Source: an uncultured bacterium
GTDB taxonomy: Bacteria; Cyanobacteriota; Vampirovibrionia; Gastranaerophilales; Gastranaerophilaceae
Assembly: GCA_949296355.1 (NCBI GenBank)
Contig: CASFPS010000001.1
Coordinates: 62,001 to 126,000, forward strand
Direction: 5' to 3'
DNA: 64,000 bases
Below, one piece after another: positions 48,267 to 63,741 of this stretch. The first letter of the stretch is position 1, and every line of letters starts with the position of its first letter. Position numbers and translations under genes: made by a program. The notes under the pieces were generated by a model. That model did no database searches, was not told the DNA's origin, and saw nothing but the letters and a program-made list of their open reading frames with translations.

Positions 48267-49901
48267 ATGAAAAAGAAAACAGAAGATAAAACGATAAAAA
48301 CACGGACTATTGCTTCTGAATATGAATCTATGAAACAAGACAGGCAGCCCTATTTAGATAAAGCTAAAGAAGCCTGTAAATATACAATCCCTTCCCTTAT
48401 TGCAGATAGAGAAACAAAGCGATTAGACGGTAAAAGTGTTAAATTTATTGAAACCCCGAATCAATCAGTAGGAGCTGATGGAGTTAATAATTTAGCAGCT
48501 AAGATAGCCGTGACCCTGCTCCCACCAAATCAAACATTCTTTAGATTTAATATGGACAGAAGCACTGTCAGGGAACAGGCTGCTATGGAGGCACAAGAGC
48601 CTACACAATTTGAAGAGAATGTTAATCGTGGTTTATCAATAATTGAAAGAGACTTACTTGCTTATCAAGAAGAACTTGCAGACAGAGTTTGTGTTGGTGA
48701 GGCTGTTATTCATCAGCTTGTGGCAGGTAATGTTTTTCTTGTACATGACCCCAAAAAAGGATTAAGATATTATCCTTTAGACCGGTATTGTGTAAAAAGG
48801 GATTATTGCGGGAATGTTATAAAAGCAATAACTGAAGAAACTGTCGGTTATTATGCTTTACCTGAAAAGATTCAAAAAGAAGTATTAGCAAAAGTTTTAG
48901 AAAAGAAAGCTATAAAAGATGATAGAGGTGATTTAAGGCTTGAAGAACTTGAACTCACTTTATATACAAAATTTAAACGAGATGGAAAATTCTGGCTAGT
49001 ATGTCAAGAGGTTGAAGGAATTATTTTACCGGATTCTCAAGGAAAGTATCCCATAGATATAGCTCCGTTTATTGCCTTAAGATACAGGCGTATTGACGGA
49101 GAAAGCTATGGCAGAGGCTTGGTAGAAGAATATATTGGTGATATTTCATATCTTGATACCATCTCACTTGCAATTAAACAGGCTGCTTTAGCAGGTTCTA
49201 AGCTTGTTATGCTTGTAAATCCTACTGGTACAACAAAGATTAAACACCTGGCAGAAGCCAAAAATGGTGGTTTTGCTCTTGGAAGGGTTGAAGATGTCCA
49301 GCCATTACAGGCTAATAAGTATTATGATATGCAGGTAGCACAAGCTGAAGCAGATAAGATTGAAAGAAGATTAAACAGAATATTTGTTATGAAAGCTGCT
49401 ATACAGAGAGATGCTGAAAGAGTAACAGCAGAAGAAATAAGGACAATGGCAGCAGATTTGGAAGAAGCTCTTGGAAACTACTATTCCATTATGTGTAAAG
49501 AGTTCCAGAAAGCTTATGTAAAAATAACTTTCTTTCACCTTAAAAAAGAAAGAGGCAAATATTTACCTGATTTAGTCAGGGATAAAAATGTTAAGTTAAC
49601 CGTAACCACAGGTATTGAAGCACTTGGTAGAACTTCAGACCTTAATAAGCTTGTTACATTCTGGGATGTTATGGGAAAAGTTGCCCCCGTTGCAGCGCAA
49701 TTAGGGGGTAAGGTTGAACCTATTGCAAAAACAATAGCAGCCTCTCTAAATATGGATATTGAAGGATTTTTCTATTCGGAAGAAGAAAGAGCTCAGCAGC
49801 AACAACAAGCCCAGCAGCAAGCATTACTGGAAAAAGCAGCACCAAACTTAGTCAATAAGTATGGAGATGCTGTTATGCAGCAGCAAGCACAAGAACAGTA
49901 G
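48267..49901 (+). CDS. Head-tail connector (portal), T7 gp8-like
   Basis: This 544-residue portal protein belongs to the T7 head-to-tail connector family. It has IASEYESMKQDRQPYLDKAKEACKYTIPSLI, GVNNLAAKIAVTLLPPNQTFFRF, GNVFLVHDPKKGLRYYPLDRYCVKRD and the C-terminal AERVTAEEIRTMAADLEEALG helix. It ends in a Gln-rich tail. Twelve copies form the ring through which DNA passes and on which the tail is built. Length is close to T7 gp8. Confidence 0.95.
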   Translation: MKKKTEDKTIKTRTIASEYESMKQDRQPYLDKAKEACKYTIPSLIADRETKRLDGKSVKFIETPNQSVGADGVNNLAAKIAVTLLPPNQTFFRFNMDRSTVREQAAMEAQEPTQFEENVNRGLSIIERDLLAYQEELADRVCVGEAVIHQLVAGNVFLVHDPKKGLRYYPLDRYCVKRDYCGNVIKAITEETVGYYALPEKIQKEVLAKVLEKKAIKDDRGDLRLEELELTLYTKFKRDGKFWLVCQEVEGIILPDSQGKYPIDIAPFIALRYRRIDGESYGRGLVEEYIGDISYLDTISLAIKQAALAGSKLVMLVNPTGTTKIKHLAEAKNGGFALGRVEDVQPLQANKYYDMQVAQAEADKIERRLNRIFVMKAAIQRDAERVTAEEIRTMAADLEEALGNYYSIMCKEFQKAYVKITFFHLKKERGKYLPDLVRDKNVKLTVTTGIEALGRTSDLNKLVTFWDVMGKVAPVAAQLGGKVEPIAKTIAASLNMDIEGFFYSEEERAQQQQQAQQQALLEKAAPNLVNKYGDAVMQQQAQEQ

Positions 49902-51845: not shown

Positions 51846-52637
51846 ATGATACACATTGTTTTTAATGTTGATGAAAAATATAAAGAAGCCTTAAAAGTTA
51901 CGGCTAAATCAATTCTTTTACACACAAAAGAGCCTGTTATGTTTCATATTATCGGGATTGATTCTATTGATATGGATGGTAATTTTAAATTTTATCCTAA
52001 CCCTGATTTATCAATGTTCTTAGAAGAAAATAAGCAAAACTATAATTATTTTACGACTGCGGCATTATACCGGCTGTTAATCCCCTTACTTATAAAAGAA
52101 GATAAAGCAATTTATCTTGATTGTGATACTATTGCCTGTCAAGACATTAAGGAACTTTGGGATACTGATGTTGATTTCATAGGCGGCTGCAAAGACCCTC
52201 AATTTAATTTTAGAAAACAAAGAACTAAAATAAACGGTGTTTATATAAATTCCGGAGTTTTATTGTTTAATCTCAAAAATATAAGAGAATGTATGTCCGA
52301 TTATGTCGATAGAATTATAAAAATACAAAAAGAGCAAGAATTAGAGCTTATTGACCAGGATATCATAAATCATTTATTTGATAACAAAATAACTTATCTG
52401 GATTTAAAGTGGAATGTCTGTGCAAATCTTTGTGATGATAAAGACTATACAGAATCCGATTATACAGAAAGAGATAAATCCAGAGAAAATCCTGCAATTA
52501 TTCATTATATGGGCTCAAGAAAACCTGATAAATATGATGATATTCCTTTTGCAGAGGAATATGACAAAGTAATAGGAAGAAAGAGAAACTACCCCAAAAT
52601 AATTCCGCTAGGGAAGTTTACAATTATAAGGAGATAA
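51846..52637 (+). CDS. GT8-family glycosyltransferase inserted in the virion module
   Basis: This 263-residue glycosyltransferase belongs to family 8. IHIVFNVDEKYKEALKVTAKSIL starts the Rossmann-like fold, then FTTAALYRLLIP and the metal-binding DCD (92-94) in AIYLDCDTIACQDIKELW. YINSGVLLFNLKNIREC and a C-terminal HYMGSRKPDK with the His ligand follow. GT8 enzymes move sugars from UDP-donors with retention. It lies between capsid and tail-tube genes, where T7 has none. It may modify virion protein or host surface glycans; this is inference. Confidence 0.9.
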   Translation: MIHIVFNVDEKYKEALKVTAKSILLHTKEPVMFHIIGIDSIDMDGNFKFYPNPDLSMFLEENKQNYNYFTTAALYRLLIPLLIKEDKAIYLDCDTIACQDIKELWDTDVDFIGGCKDPQFNFRKQRTKINGVYINSGVLLFNLKNIRECMSDYVDRIIKIQKEQELELIDQDIINHLFDNKITYLDLKWNVCANLCDDKDYTESDYTERDKSRENPAIIHYMGSRKPDKYDDIPFAEEYDKVIGRKRNYPKIIPLGKFTIIRR

Positions 52638-56594: not shown

Positions 56595-58640
56595 ATGCCA
56601 TACCAGAATAATAATAGCAGGGCAGTTCCCAGAGCAATTGAGAATAGGAATCTAAGACCGGCAGCCACACCAACAGATAAGCTGCTAAGATATTCGCCTC
56701 AATATGGACAAACAGGAGGATATGTTAATACTGCAAAAGCTTTATCAGATATAGGCAGAGGTTTGATGGATGTTGATACTTTACTTAGAATCCAATCTCA
56801 AGATAATACCCTAAGGGCAGTTTGGGAAACAGAACAAGCCGGAGGAAACAAAAAAGAATGGAGAGACGTATCAAAGCAAATTAAAGGCTTTGCAAAATTT
56901 AATCCATATAATGATGACGCTTATAGAAAACTACAAAGTGAGGATATTTATAGAGCAGCTTATTTAGAGCTTATAACAACACCGGATTTAGATAAATTAA
57001 GTGAAGATAAATTCTATCAGCTTGTGGGAGATACAAGCAAGAAAATGATAGAAGGATTTAAAGAGACGGGCTTATCTCCACGTGATTATGGTAATACCTT
57101 GGTTCAATGGGATGAAAATATGAAAACTCTTGAACAGAATTGGATTATCAGGCATAAAGAACATACATATAAACAATTACAAACAAAGCAAGCCTCAGAC
57201 TTGAGCTTACGTGCTGGAGAGGCTTTATATACAAATACAGGCTTAGATAAAAGCCTTGCCTTACAAGATACCATAAATCTTAAATTACAAGAACTTTCAG
57301 ATTTAGGTATGGCGGAAGAGACACAATTAAATGTTGTCTTAGCCGGTATGCAGGGTTTTTTAGCTAAAAATGCTGATAGCATTACTGGGGCTGAATTTAA
57401 AGCTGCTGTTAAAAATATTATGATAGAAGGCAAAAGAGCTGATGAAATTATCCCTAATTTTGATGCTCAGGTAGATATGGCTTACAGAAATGCTGTAACT
57501 GCTATCTACGAGGATAAGAGACTAGCTTTCCAAGACCACAATCTTGATTTACAAATCTCAGCCCAGGAAGCTTCAAAAGAGCTTTATAATTGGGTACAAC
57601 AGAATCCTAATGCAAATAATGCACAAACACTCCAGCAAGTGCAAGAGCTAATTAATAAATATGATTTAGAAGAAAATGGCTTTGATTTTATAGGTCAGGT
57701 TGCGAAAGATAAAGCAACTTTAGAAGAGTTTCAAAATGTTCAATCAGATAGCTCCTTGCTGCAAGAGTTAGGTGCTAAAGCTGCTCTTGGAGAATTAACA
57801 GGAGAAGAGGTTTCAGCAGCTGTCAGAAATGGTCAATTAAATTGGAAAGATGCTTTAACTTTTACAGACAGAATCAATAGAGAAGCTAAAGCTGAAATGA
57901 CCGGAGCAAAACAAACATATAATGAGTTTCATTCAAAACTTGGTAAAACAGGTATTTATGGGCAGCAGCTCGGTGCTAATTCTGCCGATATTAAGAAGAT
58001 AAACGACCAAGCAAACCAATTAATTATAGATTTAAACAACGGAACAAAGACACCGGAAGAAGTAAGGCTTGGTTTGCAGCAATTAGAGAGAATTACTCAA
58101 GCTAAAGCAAGAATGAAACAAAATAAGGCTGTAAATGATTCTTTCTTGTTGAATGCTAATTATATACGAAGCCAGTCAGCACCTATGTATAAGGCAGATA
58201 CAGCTATAAATGCTTTTAAACGTTTAGGCTTAGAAAGAGGCAGGGTAGGACAAAAGATACAGCCTCAAATAACCTCTGCACCTAATGATAACAGAGTTGT
58301 TAGGGGTAAATCAGCACCACATAAAGGTTATGATTTAGCTGCAACAAATGATACAAGAGTTCACTCTGTTAATATGAAGGGAACTTGTATTTATGCCGGT
58401 TATGAGCCTAATGGCTTTGGAAACTATGTTGTTATTAAATATGACAACGGTACATATATGAGAGCAGGTCATTTCTCAACCAGTACAAAGCATTTACAAG
58501 GTAAGACAATACCTGCCGGCATGTATTTAGGTAATGCAGGCAGTACAGGTTTTTCTACAGGAACTCATCTACACGTTGATTTCTGGGATAGAAATAGACA
58601 ATTAATTGGCGTTGAAAGATTTCAAAGCTTAATGAGGTAA
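56595..58640 (+). CDS. Internal core protein, gp15-like, with C-terminal M23 peptidase
   Basis: This 681-residue protein has a long helical part (about 1-560) in the gp15 position. A C-terminal M23/LytM domain follows: HKGYD (H576, D580) supplies two zinc ligands, GHFS lies in between, and HLH (H658, H660) completes the site. M23 enzymes cut peptidoglycan cross-bridges. T7 keeps its wall-degrading activity in gp16 as a transglycosylase, so here the lytic activity has moved to a different core protein and a different enzyme class. Confidence 0.88.
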   Translation: MPYQNNNSRAVPRAIENRNLRPAATPTDKLLRYSPQYGQTGGYVNTAKALSDIGRGLMDVDTLLRIQSQDNTLRAVWETEQAGGNKKEWRDVSKQIKGFAKFNPYNDDAYRKLQSEDIYRAAYLELITTPDLDKLSEDKFYQLVGDTSKKMIEGFKETGLSPRDYGNTLVQWDENMKTLEQNWIIRHKEHTYKQLQTKQASDLSLRAGEALYTNTGLDKSLALQDTINLKLQELSDLGMAEETQLNVVLAGMQGFLAKNADSITGAEFKAAVKNIMIEGKRADEIIPNFDAQVDMAYRNAVTAIYEDKRLAFQDHNLDLQISAQEASKELYNWVQQNPNANNAQTLQQVQELINKYDLEENGFDFIGQVAKDKATLEEFQNVQSDSSLLQELGAKAALGELTGEEVSAAVRNGQLNWKDALTFTDRINREAKAEMTGAKQTYNEFHSKLGKTGIYGQQLGANSADIKKINDQANQLIIDLNNGTKTPEEVRLGLQQLERITQAKARMKQNKAVNDSFLLNANYIRSQSAPMYKADTAINAFKRLGLERGRVGQKIQPQITSAPNDNRVVRGKSAPHKGYDLAATNDTRVHSVNMKGTCIYAGYEPNGFGNYVVIKYDNGTYMRAGHFSTSTKHLQGKTIPAGMYLGNAGSTGFSTGTHLHVDFWDRNRQLIGVERFQSLMR

Positions 58641-58650
58641 TTAATAAATA

Positions 58651-61600
58651 ATGGAAGATATAAGAATTGATGGGCTTACTGCTGATGAGTGGGAGGAACT
58701 TGCAAATCCTCAAGCAGCCTCTAATGAACAATTAGAAGAGCTTGGAATAATGCAAGCCTCCCCACAGGCTCAGCAGACAGAAGAAACACCAAACAACGAA
58801 CAACCTTCAGCACCTTTGAATACAGAAAGAGAATATGAAGATTTAGATTATTGGCAGACTGTTGGTGATGAATGGTTAGCTATTGGAACTGAAGCTTCAA
58901 GATTTTTCTTACCGAAAAGCAAAGAACTAAATTATACTCCACGCACTAAAGCTGGGGAGTTTATGAAGAAAGGTACAAGAGTTGCTCTTGGTATAACAGG
59001 CTTGCTTTATGGCGGAGAAGTTGCAGGAGGTTTAAAACTACTTGCTCAAAGTAAAAACTTAACTTCAGCAGCAAAAGCAGCAGGTGGAGTAGAAAAAATC
59101 CTAAAAGGAAATAAGTTCTTTAAAACCTCTCAAGGAGGAGCTAAGGCTTTTGGTGTTAAAGCCCTTAATATAGGAACTCAAGGTGTTCTCCAAGGGGCAA
59201 TCCTTGACAGCTATATCCCTGAAGATTATGAAGGCAGATTAGCTGATATGCTTGGAGATACTAACAATAAGTTTATTGATTGGCTGCAAACTGATGAAAA
59301 TGATTCTGTAGCTGAAGATAAGCTAAAAAATATTGTTGAAGGTGCTGTTTTAAGTGTTGGTTTAAATGGGGCTTTTGAAGCAGCAGCACCAATTCTCGGA
59401 AGGGTATTTAAAAATGCCAAGAATTTAAGGAAACCGGATATTACTCCGGAAGAAACAGCTAATATTGTTGATGATATAACTCAAAACCAGGTGAAATTAC
59501 AAAAGATAGCAGATACTTCAGAGCTAGCAGATACTGTAAAAGCAATTAGAGAAGAAGCTTTGGAAGCTGGTGATGATGCTTCTCAAATGCTTGTGGATAG
59601 ATTAAACCCTCAAGATATAGAAAATGCCCAAAGAATGTTAAACATCATTGATGAAGGAGAAGATATCTTTATTCATTCTGATGGCACTTTTGATATTAAA
59701 GTTTCTAATTGGGAAGATGCTTATAAAGTTTCTAAAGATGAATATGGGAAACAACTCTCAGCTCAAGATATAGCAAATAATGCTGAATTTGCTGGAGATA
59801 CAGCAATTACTCAGCAGGATGATGCTATCAGAACAACTTGGACAAACAGAGGCTGGATTGGTGAGAATGAAGAACTCACACCTAAAATTTCAAATAAAAT
59901 AGCCAAAAATTATAAAGATAAATGGCAGATTGATAATAATATCAAAGTTGAGTTTGTTGATGGCTTAACCCTTAAAGGAGAGGCTGTTGAAGGCAATACT
60001 AACGCAACAACATTCTTAGGAAAGAAAAGTAAAAAAGGTACTTTACCCAATATTACAATTCAAATAGATAAGAATGCCAGAAACCCTTATGCTACATTAA
60101 GGGCAGAGCTTGAACACGCAAGAGATATTGCTAAAGGTGAAATTCCAGACCAGAATATACAGCATTTCTCAAGGTATTCAGGACTTAATGAGGGAGAAGC
60201 TGCTGTTGATTATACTTATAAGAAATCAGTAGGCAGGAGTAATATATTAAATCAACCTAAAAATACATTTGATAGTTGGTATGAAAACAAACAAGCTGAA
60301 TCAACGATTGGTGATTTAATCAATGACGAGGCTTTTAAAAGTGAAGGATTGCTTGATGATGTTGCTGATATAAAAGTTAAACATACAAATAGTGATAACC
60401 TTCCAATGGATACGCCACTTAACGATACTCATACTTTGGGCGGTTATGTAACTATTGAAAATGGTGAACCAGTAATTTATACTAATAGTAACCTATCTAA
60501 AGAACTGGTTGAAGAAAACCTATATCATGAGCTTCAACACGCCAGAGATATAAAAACCGCATATTTGAATCCTAATGCTTCATTAGAAGAAAGAATGACA
60601 GCCTATCAGGATATTCAGGAAGTTATGAATGCTGTTAGCAGTGGTGACGTGGAAGCTTATAAAAATAGCAAATATGAAGTAAAGGCAGATTTAAATAGGG
60701 ATTTTCTAAAAAACAAGAAAAAGGAGTATTATGACAGACAACAAACAACCACCCTCACTGGAGGAAGCCCTGATAACAATGAAGTTCGATTCTCACATGA
60801 AGGGAATGCGGAAGCACCTGATGGAAACAGAGGGCTTAGACAAGGAAGCAGCTCTCCAGAAGGCGTGGGAAACACTTCAACCGATATACAAGGAACAGTT
60901 GGACAAAGCCCGTACGCAGAACAACTCAAACTAGACTTTGATAATAAAATCAATTCAGCAGTTTCTATGGAATCATTGACTGATGGTTCTTTAGTTGTAA
61001 ATTCTGTTGAAGATATAGATAAAACAATCAACAAAACAATAGAGCTTTCACCTGAAATCTCAGGCACAACTTGGGAAGCTATCACAAAGGATAGTGAAGC
61101 CCAAGCAAACCTGATGATTCAGGCTGAAGAATTAGGATTAACTAATGATTTAGTTGAAGCTATTTCAATGAATGATGTAGCTAAAATGGATAGTATAACA
61201 AGAACTGTTCTTGCTGTTCAAAAATTAAGCTCACATCTTACGGATAAGCTTGATTCTTTAGGAGAAAATCCTCCTTTTGAACAAATGTCAGCTATTATTG
61301 ATTTAATAGACCAGATTGGAAGGTACACAAAAGAAACAGGTTCAGCCTCCGGCAGAAGCTTGCAGGCAAGAAAACTTATAAATAAAGGTGTTCAAACCTT
61401 TGGTTCTTTGAGATTGTCACAGCTTACTAAAGAAGGTATTGAATCTTTATCAGACATTCTTTCTGTTGATATTAAAAATATCTGTGATTTAAACTTTACA
61501 AGAGGCACAAAATTAACCCCGCAGCAAATGAAATCTGAACTAATGGGTAAATGGCTGCAAAATACTGATTCACCTTTTGTACAAATGCTAATCAACGATA

Positions 61601-63741
61601 CAGAAATAGCTGCCAAGTTTGATGATATCCTAACTAAAGCTATTAAAAATAACGGAAATATAAATTTAAATTCTGAACTTGTAAAAGCTGTTACGGAAGT
61701 CGATTATAAAAGGGTATATAATGCAACACAGCTAACTGATAATAAAGAAAATAAATTTAAGGTTTTAAAAAACTGGATAGACAGTCAAGGCGGATTAACT
61801 TCTTATTATGTCCATAACTTATTATCCGGTGTTGGTACTTTAGCCAAAAACTTAATTTCAGGAAGCCTTAATACCTTATATTTCCCCGCTAAAAAGATTG
61901 TAGCTGGTTATATGGGTGGTGGTGACAGTATGGTTAGAGAAGGTATTAATACCTATAAGCAGCTTACTGCTAATTGGGCTGAATCCTGGAATCTTTGTAA
62001 ACAAGCTTTCCTTAAGGGTGATGGTAAGCTTTCTGTAATGAGAGACACCATGAATATGTCTGAAGATGAAGTGCTGGAAGGTTTTAGGGAATGGAATTTT
62101 GATTTTGATACTCCTGAAGGAATATGGCACGCTATCCAAAACTTCCACTCTGTTATGACAAGAGCTATGGGGGCTTCAGATGAATTTATGTCTCAGCTCA
62201 ACTATAGAAGCATTAAAAGAGCAAGAGCTATAGAACAAGCTAACGAGCTGGCAAAACAATATGGAATAGAAGATGAAACTATTAAAGATGCTATTTCAGA
62301 CAGAATCTTTAGAGAAGCTTTTGATAGTGCCGGCAGACCTATGGATACAGAGGTCTTAGCTGAAGCTAAGGATATTCTATATCAATTACCCCTAAACGGT
62401 CAAATCTTTGATAGAGCTACAGGAGAAATGAAGCAGGTTAGACCCGAAACCTGGGCAACTAAAGCAGGGCAAGCAATAAATAATGCTGCAAATTCTAATT
62501 TCTTCTTAAAAATAATGTTCCCTTTTGTAAAAACCGGAATCAATATATTGCAGCAGAACTTAGAGCACAACGGTATTTATGGGCTACTTTCTAACTCACA
62601 GAGAAAACTGCTTTTATCTAACACAAGAGAAGGGGCTTTAGCACGCTCTCAAGCTGCTTTTGGAATGTTTTCATTTATGGGAGCAGCCTCTCTTGCTATG
62701 TCAGGTAGAATTACAGGCTCAGCTCCATCAGACCCTAATGAGAGAAAAGCCTTGTTTGCTACAGGCTGGAAACCTTATTCTATAAGGGTAGGTGGTAAAT
62801 TCTATTCATATCAAGGGTATGAACCAATACAAACAATCTTAGGTTTTGCTGCTGATAGTGTCAACATTTATGGAAATATTGTTAATTCTGAAGATGATGC
62901 TAAATGGCAGAAGTTTAGTCAGAGAATATTATCTACTGTTATGAACAACTTCTTAGATAAAGCTGCTTTTAGAACAGGGATAAAGCAATTAGCGTTTTTA
63001 ACAAGCCCTGATGAGAATTATGCTGATTTTGCGAAAGCAATGCAGCAGACAGCTCAAGGGTTCTTACCGGATGCTGCATTGATAAGAAACATTTCTTCCG
63101 TTGGAGAAAGAGCTGTAACTGTACCACAAGGTTATGAGAGAATTTTTAGTAATTATTTTAACCGTGGTTTAGGTGACTATAGACGAGATGTGTTTGGCAA
63201 CAGGCAGGATAATTATGGCTTGATAGTTACAAATGCTGGTAAAGATAATTCTGATTTACCTGAATATGCCGAGTTAGAATACTTAGCACAATATGGTTTT
63301 AATCCTTCAGAGATTACTCAAACAATAACCGGTACAACTTTAAAATATAGAGATTTTAAAAGTGTTGTTACAGGAAGAAGTATATATGACACTATGCAAG
63401 AAGAATTATCAATAATGACTATTGATGGTAAAACTCTTCAGGAAGCTGTTAGGGATTTAGTAACCAGTGAAGAATATCAAATGCTTCCTATTGGTGTAAA
63501 TCTTAATGGCTATAAGTTTTCTCGTTCAGAAGAAACAAGACTGAATGCCATCAGAGATATCTTTGTTGAATACAATAATGAAGCTCTTCAAAATGTAATC
63601 AGAGATTATGGTGATGAGTTTGTAGATAAGAAACACAGAACAATTAATGAAGCTGTAGAAGAGGTTAATTTAGAAAAGATAAACTCTTCTGTAAACCAAG
63701 GCTTAGACCACAATATAGCAAATCAATTAGCTAGTTTTTAA
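58651..63741 (+). CDS. Giant internal ejection protein, gp16-like, with zincin motifs
   Basis: This 1696-residue protein is in the gp16 position. An acidic start is followed by Gly-rich hydrophobic helices (about 108-195). Two related blocks come next: AELEHARD (485-492, first His lost) and YHELQHARD (625-633, intact HExxH). A low-complexity linker runs at about 692-770. The C-terminal half contains helices and IMFPFVKTGINILQQNLEHNG (split near 1288-1308), a pattern common in podoviral ejection and large polyvalent proteins. It should form the core and the inner-membrane channel; the zincin may process it or host proteins. Confidence 0.85.
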   Translation: MEDIRIDGLTADEWEELANPQAASNEQLEELGIMQASPQAQQTEETPNNEQPSAPLNTEREYEDLDYWQTVGDEWLAIGTEASRFFLPKSKELNYTPRTKAGEFMKKGTRVALGITGLLYGGEVAGGLKLLAQSKNLTSAAKAAGGVEKILKGNKFFKTSQGGAKAFGVKALNIGTQGVLQGAILDSYIPEDYEGRLADMLGDTNNKFIDWLQTDENDSVAEDKLKNIVEGAVLSVGLNGAFEAAAPILGRVFKNAKNLRKPDITPEETANIVDDITQNQVKLQKIADTSELADTVKAIREEALEAGDDASQMLVDRLNPQDIENAQRMLNIIDEGEDIFIHSDGTFDIKVSNWEDAYKVSKDEYGKQLSAQDIANNAEFAGDTAITQQDDAIRTTWTNRGWIGENEELTPKISNKIAKNYKDKWQIDNNIKVEFVDGLTLKGEAVEGNTNATTFLGKKSKKGTLPNITIQIDKNARNPYATLRAELEHARDIAKGEIPDQNIQHFSRYSGLNEGEAAVDYTYKKSVGRSNILNQPKNTFDSWYENKQAESTIGDLINDEAFKSEGLLDDVADIKVKHTNSDNLPMDTPLNDTHTLGGYVTIENGEPVIYTNSNLSKELVEENLYHELQHARDIKTAYLNPNASLEERMTAYQDIQEVMNAVSSGDVEAYKNSKYEVKADLNRDFLKNKKKEYYDRQQTTTLTGGSPDNNEVRFSHEGNAEAPDGNRGLRQGSSSPEGVGNTSTDIQGTVGQSPYAEQLKLDFDNKINSAVSMESLTDGSLVVNSVEDIDKTINKTIELSPEISGTTWEAITKDSEAQANLMIQAEELGLTNDLVEAISMNDVAKMDSITRTVLAVQKLSSHLTDKLDSLGENPPFEQMSAIIDLIDQIGRYTKETGSASGRSLQARKLINKGVQTFGSLRLSQLTKEGIESLSDILSVDIKNICDLNFTRGTKLTPQQMKSELMGKWLQNTDSPFVQMLINDTEIAAKFDDILTKAIKNNGNINLNSELVKAVTEVDYKRVYNATQLTDNKENKFKVLKNWIDSQGGLTSYYVHNLLSGVGTLAKNLISGSLNTLYFPAKKIVAGYMGGGDSMVREGINTYKQLTANWAESWNLCKQAFLKGDGKLSVMRDTMNMSEDEVLEGFREWNFDFDTPEGIWHAIQNFHSVMTRAMGASDEFMSQLNYRSIKRARAIEQANELAKQYGIEDETIKDAISDRIFREAFDSAGRPMDTEVLAEAKDILYQLPLNGQIFDRATGEMKQVRPETWATKAGQAINNAANSNFFLKIMFPFVKTGINILQQNLEHNGIYGLLSNSQRKLLLSNTREGALARSQAAFGMFSFMGAASLAMSGRITGSAPSDPNERKALFATGWKPYSIRVGGKFYSYQGYEPIQTILGFAADSVNIYGNIVNSEDDAKWQKFSQRILSTVMNNFLDKAAFRTGIKQLAFLTSPDENYADFAKAMQQTAQGFLPDAALIRNISSVGERAVTVPQGYERIFSNYFNRGLGDYRRDVFGNRQDNYGLIVTNAGKDNSDLPEYAELEYLAQYGFNPSEITQTITGTTLKYRDFKSVVTGRSIYDTMQEELSIMTIDGKTLQEAVRDLVTSEEYQMLPIGVNLNGYKFSRSEETRLNAIRDIFVEYNNEALQNVIRDYGDEFVDKKHRTINEAVEEVNLEKINSSVNQGLDHNIANQLASF
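60731..60934 (+). CDS. Candidate overprinted gene inside the gp16-like gene
   Basis: A 67-codon frame lies wholly inside the 1696-residue gene in its +1 frame. It has AAAGGAG and an ATG 4 nt later. The product (MTDNKQPPSLEEALITMKF, HMKGMRKHLMETEGLDKEAA, AWETLQPIYKEQLDKAR) looks like a compact helical protein. The host frame here is a linker rich in Gly, Ser, Asn and Thr. Codons in the nested frame favour CTG, GAG and AAG, unlike the neighbours. No family is recognised. It could be chance, but the ribosome binding site and composition argue for expression. Confidence 0.55.
   Translation: MTDNKQPPSLEEALITMKFDSHMKGMRKHLMETEGLDKEAALQKAWETLQPIYKEQLDKARTQNNSN

Follow-up and report, generated by a model that had tools for sequence, protein, structure and literature searches.

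The open reading frame (ORF) at positions 60731-60934, which lies inside the gene for a giant ejection protein of a T7-like prophage, is very probably a real small protein gene that shares its DNA with the longer gene and that arrived there together with an effector cassette. The cassette is an insertion in the ejection gene, and both reading frames of the shared DNA are under selection. The sections below give an assessment of the host gene and its cassette, the two overlapping frames, the recurrence of the arrangement in related and unrelated phages, and the role that the nested protein may play.

The ejection-protein gene and its cassette

The window, i.e. the whole stretch of 64,000 nucleotides that was analysed, is chromosome of a gut bacterium of the Candidatus Gastranaerophilales type up to about 47 kb, with genes for ribosomal proteins, DNA polymerase I, enolase and IF-2. 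After this chromosomal part come the late genes of a T7-like prophage, starting at a portal gene at 48267. Between the prophage major capsid and tail genes is a glycosyltransferase-like gene (51846-52637), and the gp15-like protein encoded upstream of the ejection gene (56595-58640) ends in an apparent M23 peptidase domain (..GTHLHVDFWD..). The main gene occupies 58651-63741 on the forward strand, its frame open throughout its 1696 codons, and the initial annotation was right to call it a giant ejection-protein gene. The 1696-aa product, a T7 gp16-like ejection (internal virion) protein of the polyvalent type, matches phrog_6651 (internal virion protein) with an E value of 7.7e-48, tblastn searches with it lead to internal virion protein D of Pelagibacter, Roseobacter and cyanophages, and the next gene encodes a tail fibre; both the family and the late-gene context are thus those of a T7 gp16-like internal virion protein. 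The window protein has the phrog_6651 match and the conserved C-terminal half in common with T7 gp16-type ejection proteins, but differs from them in its inserted peptidase-like domain and its nested gene.

The main protein can be aligned with those of two relatives (L044 and L045) to about residue 531 and again from about residue 756, with 67-68 % identity (for L044, residues 1-531 and 757-1696 of the window protein), and the DNA in between, at about 60244-60915, is therefore a variable cassette. Immediately upstream of this site is a conserved domain (60052-60243; ..LRAELEHARDIAKGEIPDQ..HFSRY..) that is 49-83 % identical among phage and MAG loci (alignments A1/A4). On the other side, the conserved main protein resumes at an EQLKLDF motif (60919-60939), which is found in L003, L042, L044, L045 and other loci and which contains the stop codon of the nested ORF. 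Five viral contigs or MAG loci (L003, L024, L045, L046 and L047) have a cassette-free ejection gene. One reading offered in the initial annotation was that a small gene had been inserted and the main frame had remained open across it, and this DNA is indeed an insertion relative to L003, L024 and L045.

The cassette has two parts: its main frame first encodes a peptidase-like domain with an HExxH motif, and the nested gene comes after this domain. The zincin-like metallopeptidase domain (60253-60720) has its HELQH motif at 60526-60540 and a third-ligand Glu at 60676-60678. The two His residues, the Glu between them and the later Glu are invariant in four homologues (the window, L020, L021 and L040), and the L021 homologue matches phrog_87, a metallo-protease family, with an E value of 1.6e-7. 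Based on the predicted structure of the domain (pLDDT 85.6), the best VIA Z scores are 5-6, mostly with zincins (including PprI, Wss1, ArdC and the N4 virion RNA polymerase), and Foldseek E values are above 0.5, the alignment of this model with zincins being suggestive only. At other loci, the place is filled in other ways: L025 and L041 have a different domain upstream of the nested ORF, and the nested ORF of L023, L039, L042 and L044 precedes a GNAT-like domain or occupies the corresponding position.

The nested frame and the selection on it

The nested ORF begins with an ATG at 60731, 4 nt behind a Shine-Dalgarno (SD) sequence, AAGGAG, at 60721-60726, and runs for 67 codons in the +1 frame of the main gene to a TAG at 60932-60934. 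It is therefore, as first described, a complete ORF with its own start and SD in another frame of a longer open gene, and it is the sole sense-strand nested ORF of at least 45 codons with an ATG start within 58651-63741. In the main frame, the same bases encode the Gly/Ser/Asn/Thr linker that the initial annotation had recognized (60730-60918), which is free of stops, and whose similarity among relatives is mostly accounted for by the nested frame. The reported rise in G and C was also found, G+C content being 48 % in the nested ORF against 36 % in the whole gene, a level reached by 0.1 % of 201-nt windows, and T at wobble positions drops from 40 % in the gene to 7 % in the nested frame. For the 23 nested codons that precede AA, AG or GA, a T ending would create a stop in the main frame; none of them ends in T, and 14 could. 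The change in composition, together with the shift towards CTG, GAG and AAG, thus arises because both frames are kept open.

The nested product had been described as helical and protein-like, and a single-sequence AlphaFold2 prediction agrees, giving a helical hairpin (residues 10-34 and 38-66) with a mean pLDDT of 90.6 and a pTM of 0.69. Foldseek searches of PDB and BFVD with this hairpin gave no match below E 0.5, and profile and structure searches gave no convincing fold or family. No close relative was found in IMG/VR, GTDB contigs or phage records, and IMG/VR likewise contained no match to profiles of family A, to which the window gene belongs, or of family B, a second kind of nested gene. 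Several candidate relationships were rejected. The match to the Pfam FRB domain (17.7 bits) is under the curated cut-off of 24.7, weak family A profile matches in long host ORFs were put down to chance, membership of the GNAT-associated family C was dismissed (HMM E 0.56), and profile comparison gave no support for linking family A directly with family C.

One alternative is that the nested frame is open by chance over a Gly/Ser/Asn/Thr-rich linker and is untranslated. When synonymous codons were randomised under a fixed main protein, an ATG frame of this length had a probability of about 0.01, and of 10-45 % for some relatives; openness alone is therefore weak evidence, and the case rests on conservation. 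The initial annotation had proposed comparing related phages, and when both main proteins were fixed and their codons randomised, none of 1000 randomisations reached the observed nested similarity in 14 of the 15 pairs of homologues (z 4.2 to 14.1), and 12 of 1000 did so in the fifteenth pair, these tests not being independent, as the sequences within each cluster are related. When the nested proteins were fixed instead, main-frame similarity was within the null for several diverged pairs (window-L020, z 1.6; window-L021, z 1.9) and above it in others. Within nested codons, conservation is generally strongest at position 2 and usually weakest at position 3, the latter coinciding with the first position of the main-frame codons. 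Given the nested proteins, the probability that the main frame would be open by chance across 13 intact nested genes is about 1e-17 with nested codon use and 1e-44 with the codon use of the window gene. Both frames are thus constrained, which upholds the suggestion of a dual-coding segment. The pattern that would have spoken against it, stops in the nested frame of relatives that keep the main frame, was not seen, since all nested homologues are stop-free. Conservation of nested residues far over the null, the codon-position pattern, the confidently predicted fold and the loss of synonymous change in other phages (see below) together make a chance frame the least probable of the readings considered, at a very small probability.

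The presence of an ORF with an SD was dropped as proof of a gene, since randomisation indicates that chance often yields SD-bearing +1 ORFs in giant genes that are rich in G+C. Across 32 non-redundant giant genes with a GNAT-like domain, 74 such ORFs were observed outside the GNAT site, with 61 expected, and 25 before the GNAT, with 10.6 expected.

Recurrence of nested genes

A search of 286 genomes of the Gastranaerophilales recovered family A homologues in three more genomes (E 1e-5 to 1e-4), family A comprising four known sequences. In G204 and G240, the homologue is again in the +1 frame of ejection-gene fragments, and in G077 an orphan copy is beside a short open stretch of the other frame. 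By locus, L020 and L021 have a nested homologue at the same site, in both cases without a clear SD, and L022 has the orphan homologue. Locus L021 (G240:C15, 6129-6653 and 9493-9753, minus strand) is a chromosomal stretch with ejection-gene fragments and three intact nested genes (A, B and B), which surround an apparent toxin-antitoxin pair; the retention of orphan nested genes by hosts at this locus would fit an immunity-like role. In L022 (G077:C6, 8193-8480), the family A gene occurs without an ejection gene and near a short repeated GGGQSASVPT-like sequence. Overall, the same site holds 14 nested ORFs of five kinds at 11 loci, all 14 being in the +1 frame, 10 with an SD-like motif and 13 with the main frame open across them. 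Each kind accompanies a particular kind of domain: C is before GNAT, A and B are after the peptidase, and D and E are after a NAT-like domain.

Beyond this order, several unrelated groups of freshwater phages encode a giant virion protein whose gene has a +1-nested small gene directly ahead of the part for a GNAT-like domain. Limnohabitans phage DC33 encodes a 3125-aa protein with a GNAT-like domain that shares 45 % identity with that of L042, and the gene for this protein has two different +1-nested ORFs, one on each side of the domain. The first of these is intact in IMG/VR relatives, and the second has a homologue nested in phage zth2-2. In Microbacterium phage Barnstormer, a +1 ORF precedes the GNAT of a MuF-GNAT fusion. 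Of 80 IMG/VR loci with a GNAT-like domain, 73 have a main frame that extends for 150 residues or more ahead of the domain, and among these an automatic rule detected a motif-bearing +1 ORF in 64, most of the other nine showing one by eye. The family C profile matched 100 ORFs, all of which are +1 nested and none of which is solo, at loci that were chosen around the GNAT-like domain. The family C HMM reaches L042 and L044, and its similarity to the DC33 nested family is weak (probability 23 %).

Main-frame synonymous change, the test suggested in the initial annotation, was measured in other phage groups with the same arrangement, the relatives of the window being too diverged (saturated), and the nested gene proved to be at or among the deepest dips in three unrelated phage groups. 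In DC33-like genes (n=21), the two nested ORFs contain the two deepest dips among 308 windows, with synonymous change at 0.26 and 0.31 of its expected level. The L114 group has a value of 0.28, the lowest of 166 windows, with a dip that is sharp at the ORF ends, and the L172 group has 0.18, among the lowest windows, while a third additional group, of three sequences, has a weaker dip (0.60). Further dips are present in the DC33 giant gene (L076) at codons about 1240-1270 and 1370-1400, without an obvious nested ORF. These profiles also bear on a programmed +1 frameshift, which would yield a truncated ejection protein with a helical tail and no separate start. Such an event would account for every nested frame being +1 and ending within the gene; however, most copies have an SD and start codon at the 5' end, and in the L114 group and in DC33 ORF 2 synonymous change drops from the start codon onwards, so that frameshifting is very improbable, only slightly less so than a chance frame.

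Another deep dip in the L172 group led to a second nested +1 ORF (codons 913-971, GTG start, TAGGAG), which occupies, away from the GNAT domain, another of the linkers in the giant protein, and which matches phrog_2423 with an E value of 1.2e-9. The members of phrog_2423, a known phage family, are otherwise ordinary phage proteins, and therefore at least one nested gene was captured ready-made. This membership weighs against de novo overprinting, in which the linker would have come first and the new protein would have emerged later in its +1 frame. Hydrophilic linkers are poor in +1 stops, so that such frames arise easily, but the linker DNA is wholly missing from empty-site relatives, and in diverged pairs the nested frame is the better conserved of the two. 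An origin by overprinting is thus unlikely, even if less remote than the frameshift.

Possible role and relation to known systems

In the most probable account, an accessory effector cassette entered the ejection-protein gene of a T7-like prophage between two conserved parts. In the main frame the cassette adds a peptidase-like domain, and behind it a flexible linker that is nothing but the other reading of the small gene. The nested protein is probably translated separately, from its own SD and ATG, at the late stage of infection and along with the ejection protein. More tentatively, the small helical protein would partner the neighbouring effector domain, keeping it inactive or folded in the producing cell until ejection into the next host.

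That the nested protein is a partner or inhibitor of the adjacent injected domain is a tentative proposal, suggested by association, because kinds of nested gene pair with kinds of domain and because two solo GNATs inspected in Pseudomonas phages have no similar small neighbour. Solo GNAT-like proteins related to the polyvalent domain are encoded in KX449362.1 (752-1231) and MH113815.1 (1484-1951), in the early region near the left end of T7-like Pseudomonas phages, which is a frequent place for anti-restriction genes. About equally likely is that the nested ORF is a real gene functionally unrelated to the neighbouring effector domain, i.e. a small late gene in a linker that tolerates such arrivals. 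The nested phrog_2423 member away from the GNAT domain in L172 and the presence of two different nested genes in DC33 favour this reading, whereas a partner role is favoured by family C, which in unrelated phages precedes the GNAT-like domain in almost every fusion, and by nested-gene kinds tracking domain kinds.

Nested or overprinted genes are exemplified by Rz1 within Rz and by the overlaps of phiX174. Such genes are well known in phages and viruses (review PMC8227390), and the window gene has in common with them a complete small protein in the other frame of a longer gene, both frames being kept. The present genes differ in that many kinds of them exist, that they occupy the linkers between domains of giant virion proteins, that their frame was +1 throughout the sets examined, and that they move together with effector-domain cassettes. 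Polyvalent proteins are multidomain, virion-packaged proteins that carry zincin MPTase, RimI-like GNAT and ART domains, the GNAT often beside the ART, and that are considered to enter the cell by injection along with the DNA (Iyer et al. 2017, PMC5512222). With its ejection module and HExxH domain, the window protein, as judged from sequence, shares with them the combination of several unrelated domains, including an MPTase. A term search of the text of Iyer et al. 2017 (PMC5512222) found no overlapping or frameshifted genes, and nested genes between the domains are what is new here, within the literature searched. No report of such nested genes in polyvalent or ejection proteins was found among open-access papers; nested genes and polyvalent proteins are each known, and their recurrent combination appears to be unreported. 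In toxin-immunity and GNAT toxin-antitoxin pairs, a small gene is beside that of the effector and the two are swapped together. The nested genes resemble these pairs in being next to an effector and exchanged jointly with it, but the small gene here is inside the effector's own gene, in another frame, and inhibition is putative; the nested protein matched none of the known antitoxin families.

A broader and somewhat more doubtful hypothesis is that cognate small-protein genes are common in virion-injected polyvalent proteins, where they would lie in the +1 frame of the linkers between domains and their products would restrain each effector domain in the producing cell. Effector and partner would then form interchangeable cassettes that share a single stretch of DNA and that escape gene callers. 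Fully nested ORFs are rarely reported by such programs, so that a class of conserved phage small proteins may have gone unnoticed, even where the phage has been sequenced, as with DC33 and Barnstormer. The nested genes supply candidate partner proteins for polyvalent proteins, and synonymous dips provide a simple test for finding more of them. The arrangement also shows how a longer frame can accommodate captured genes, with Gly/Ser/Asn-rich linkers as the trace that they leave in it.
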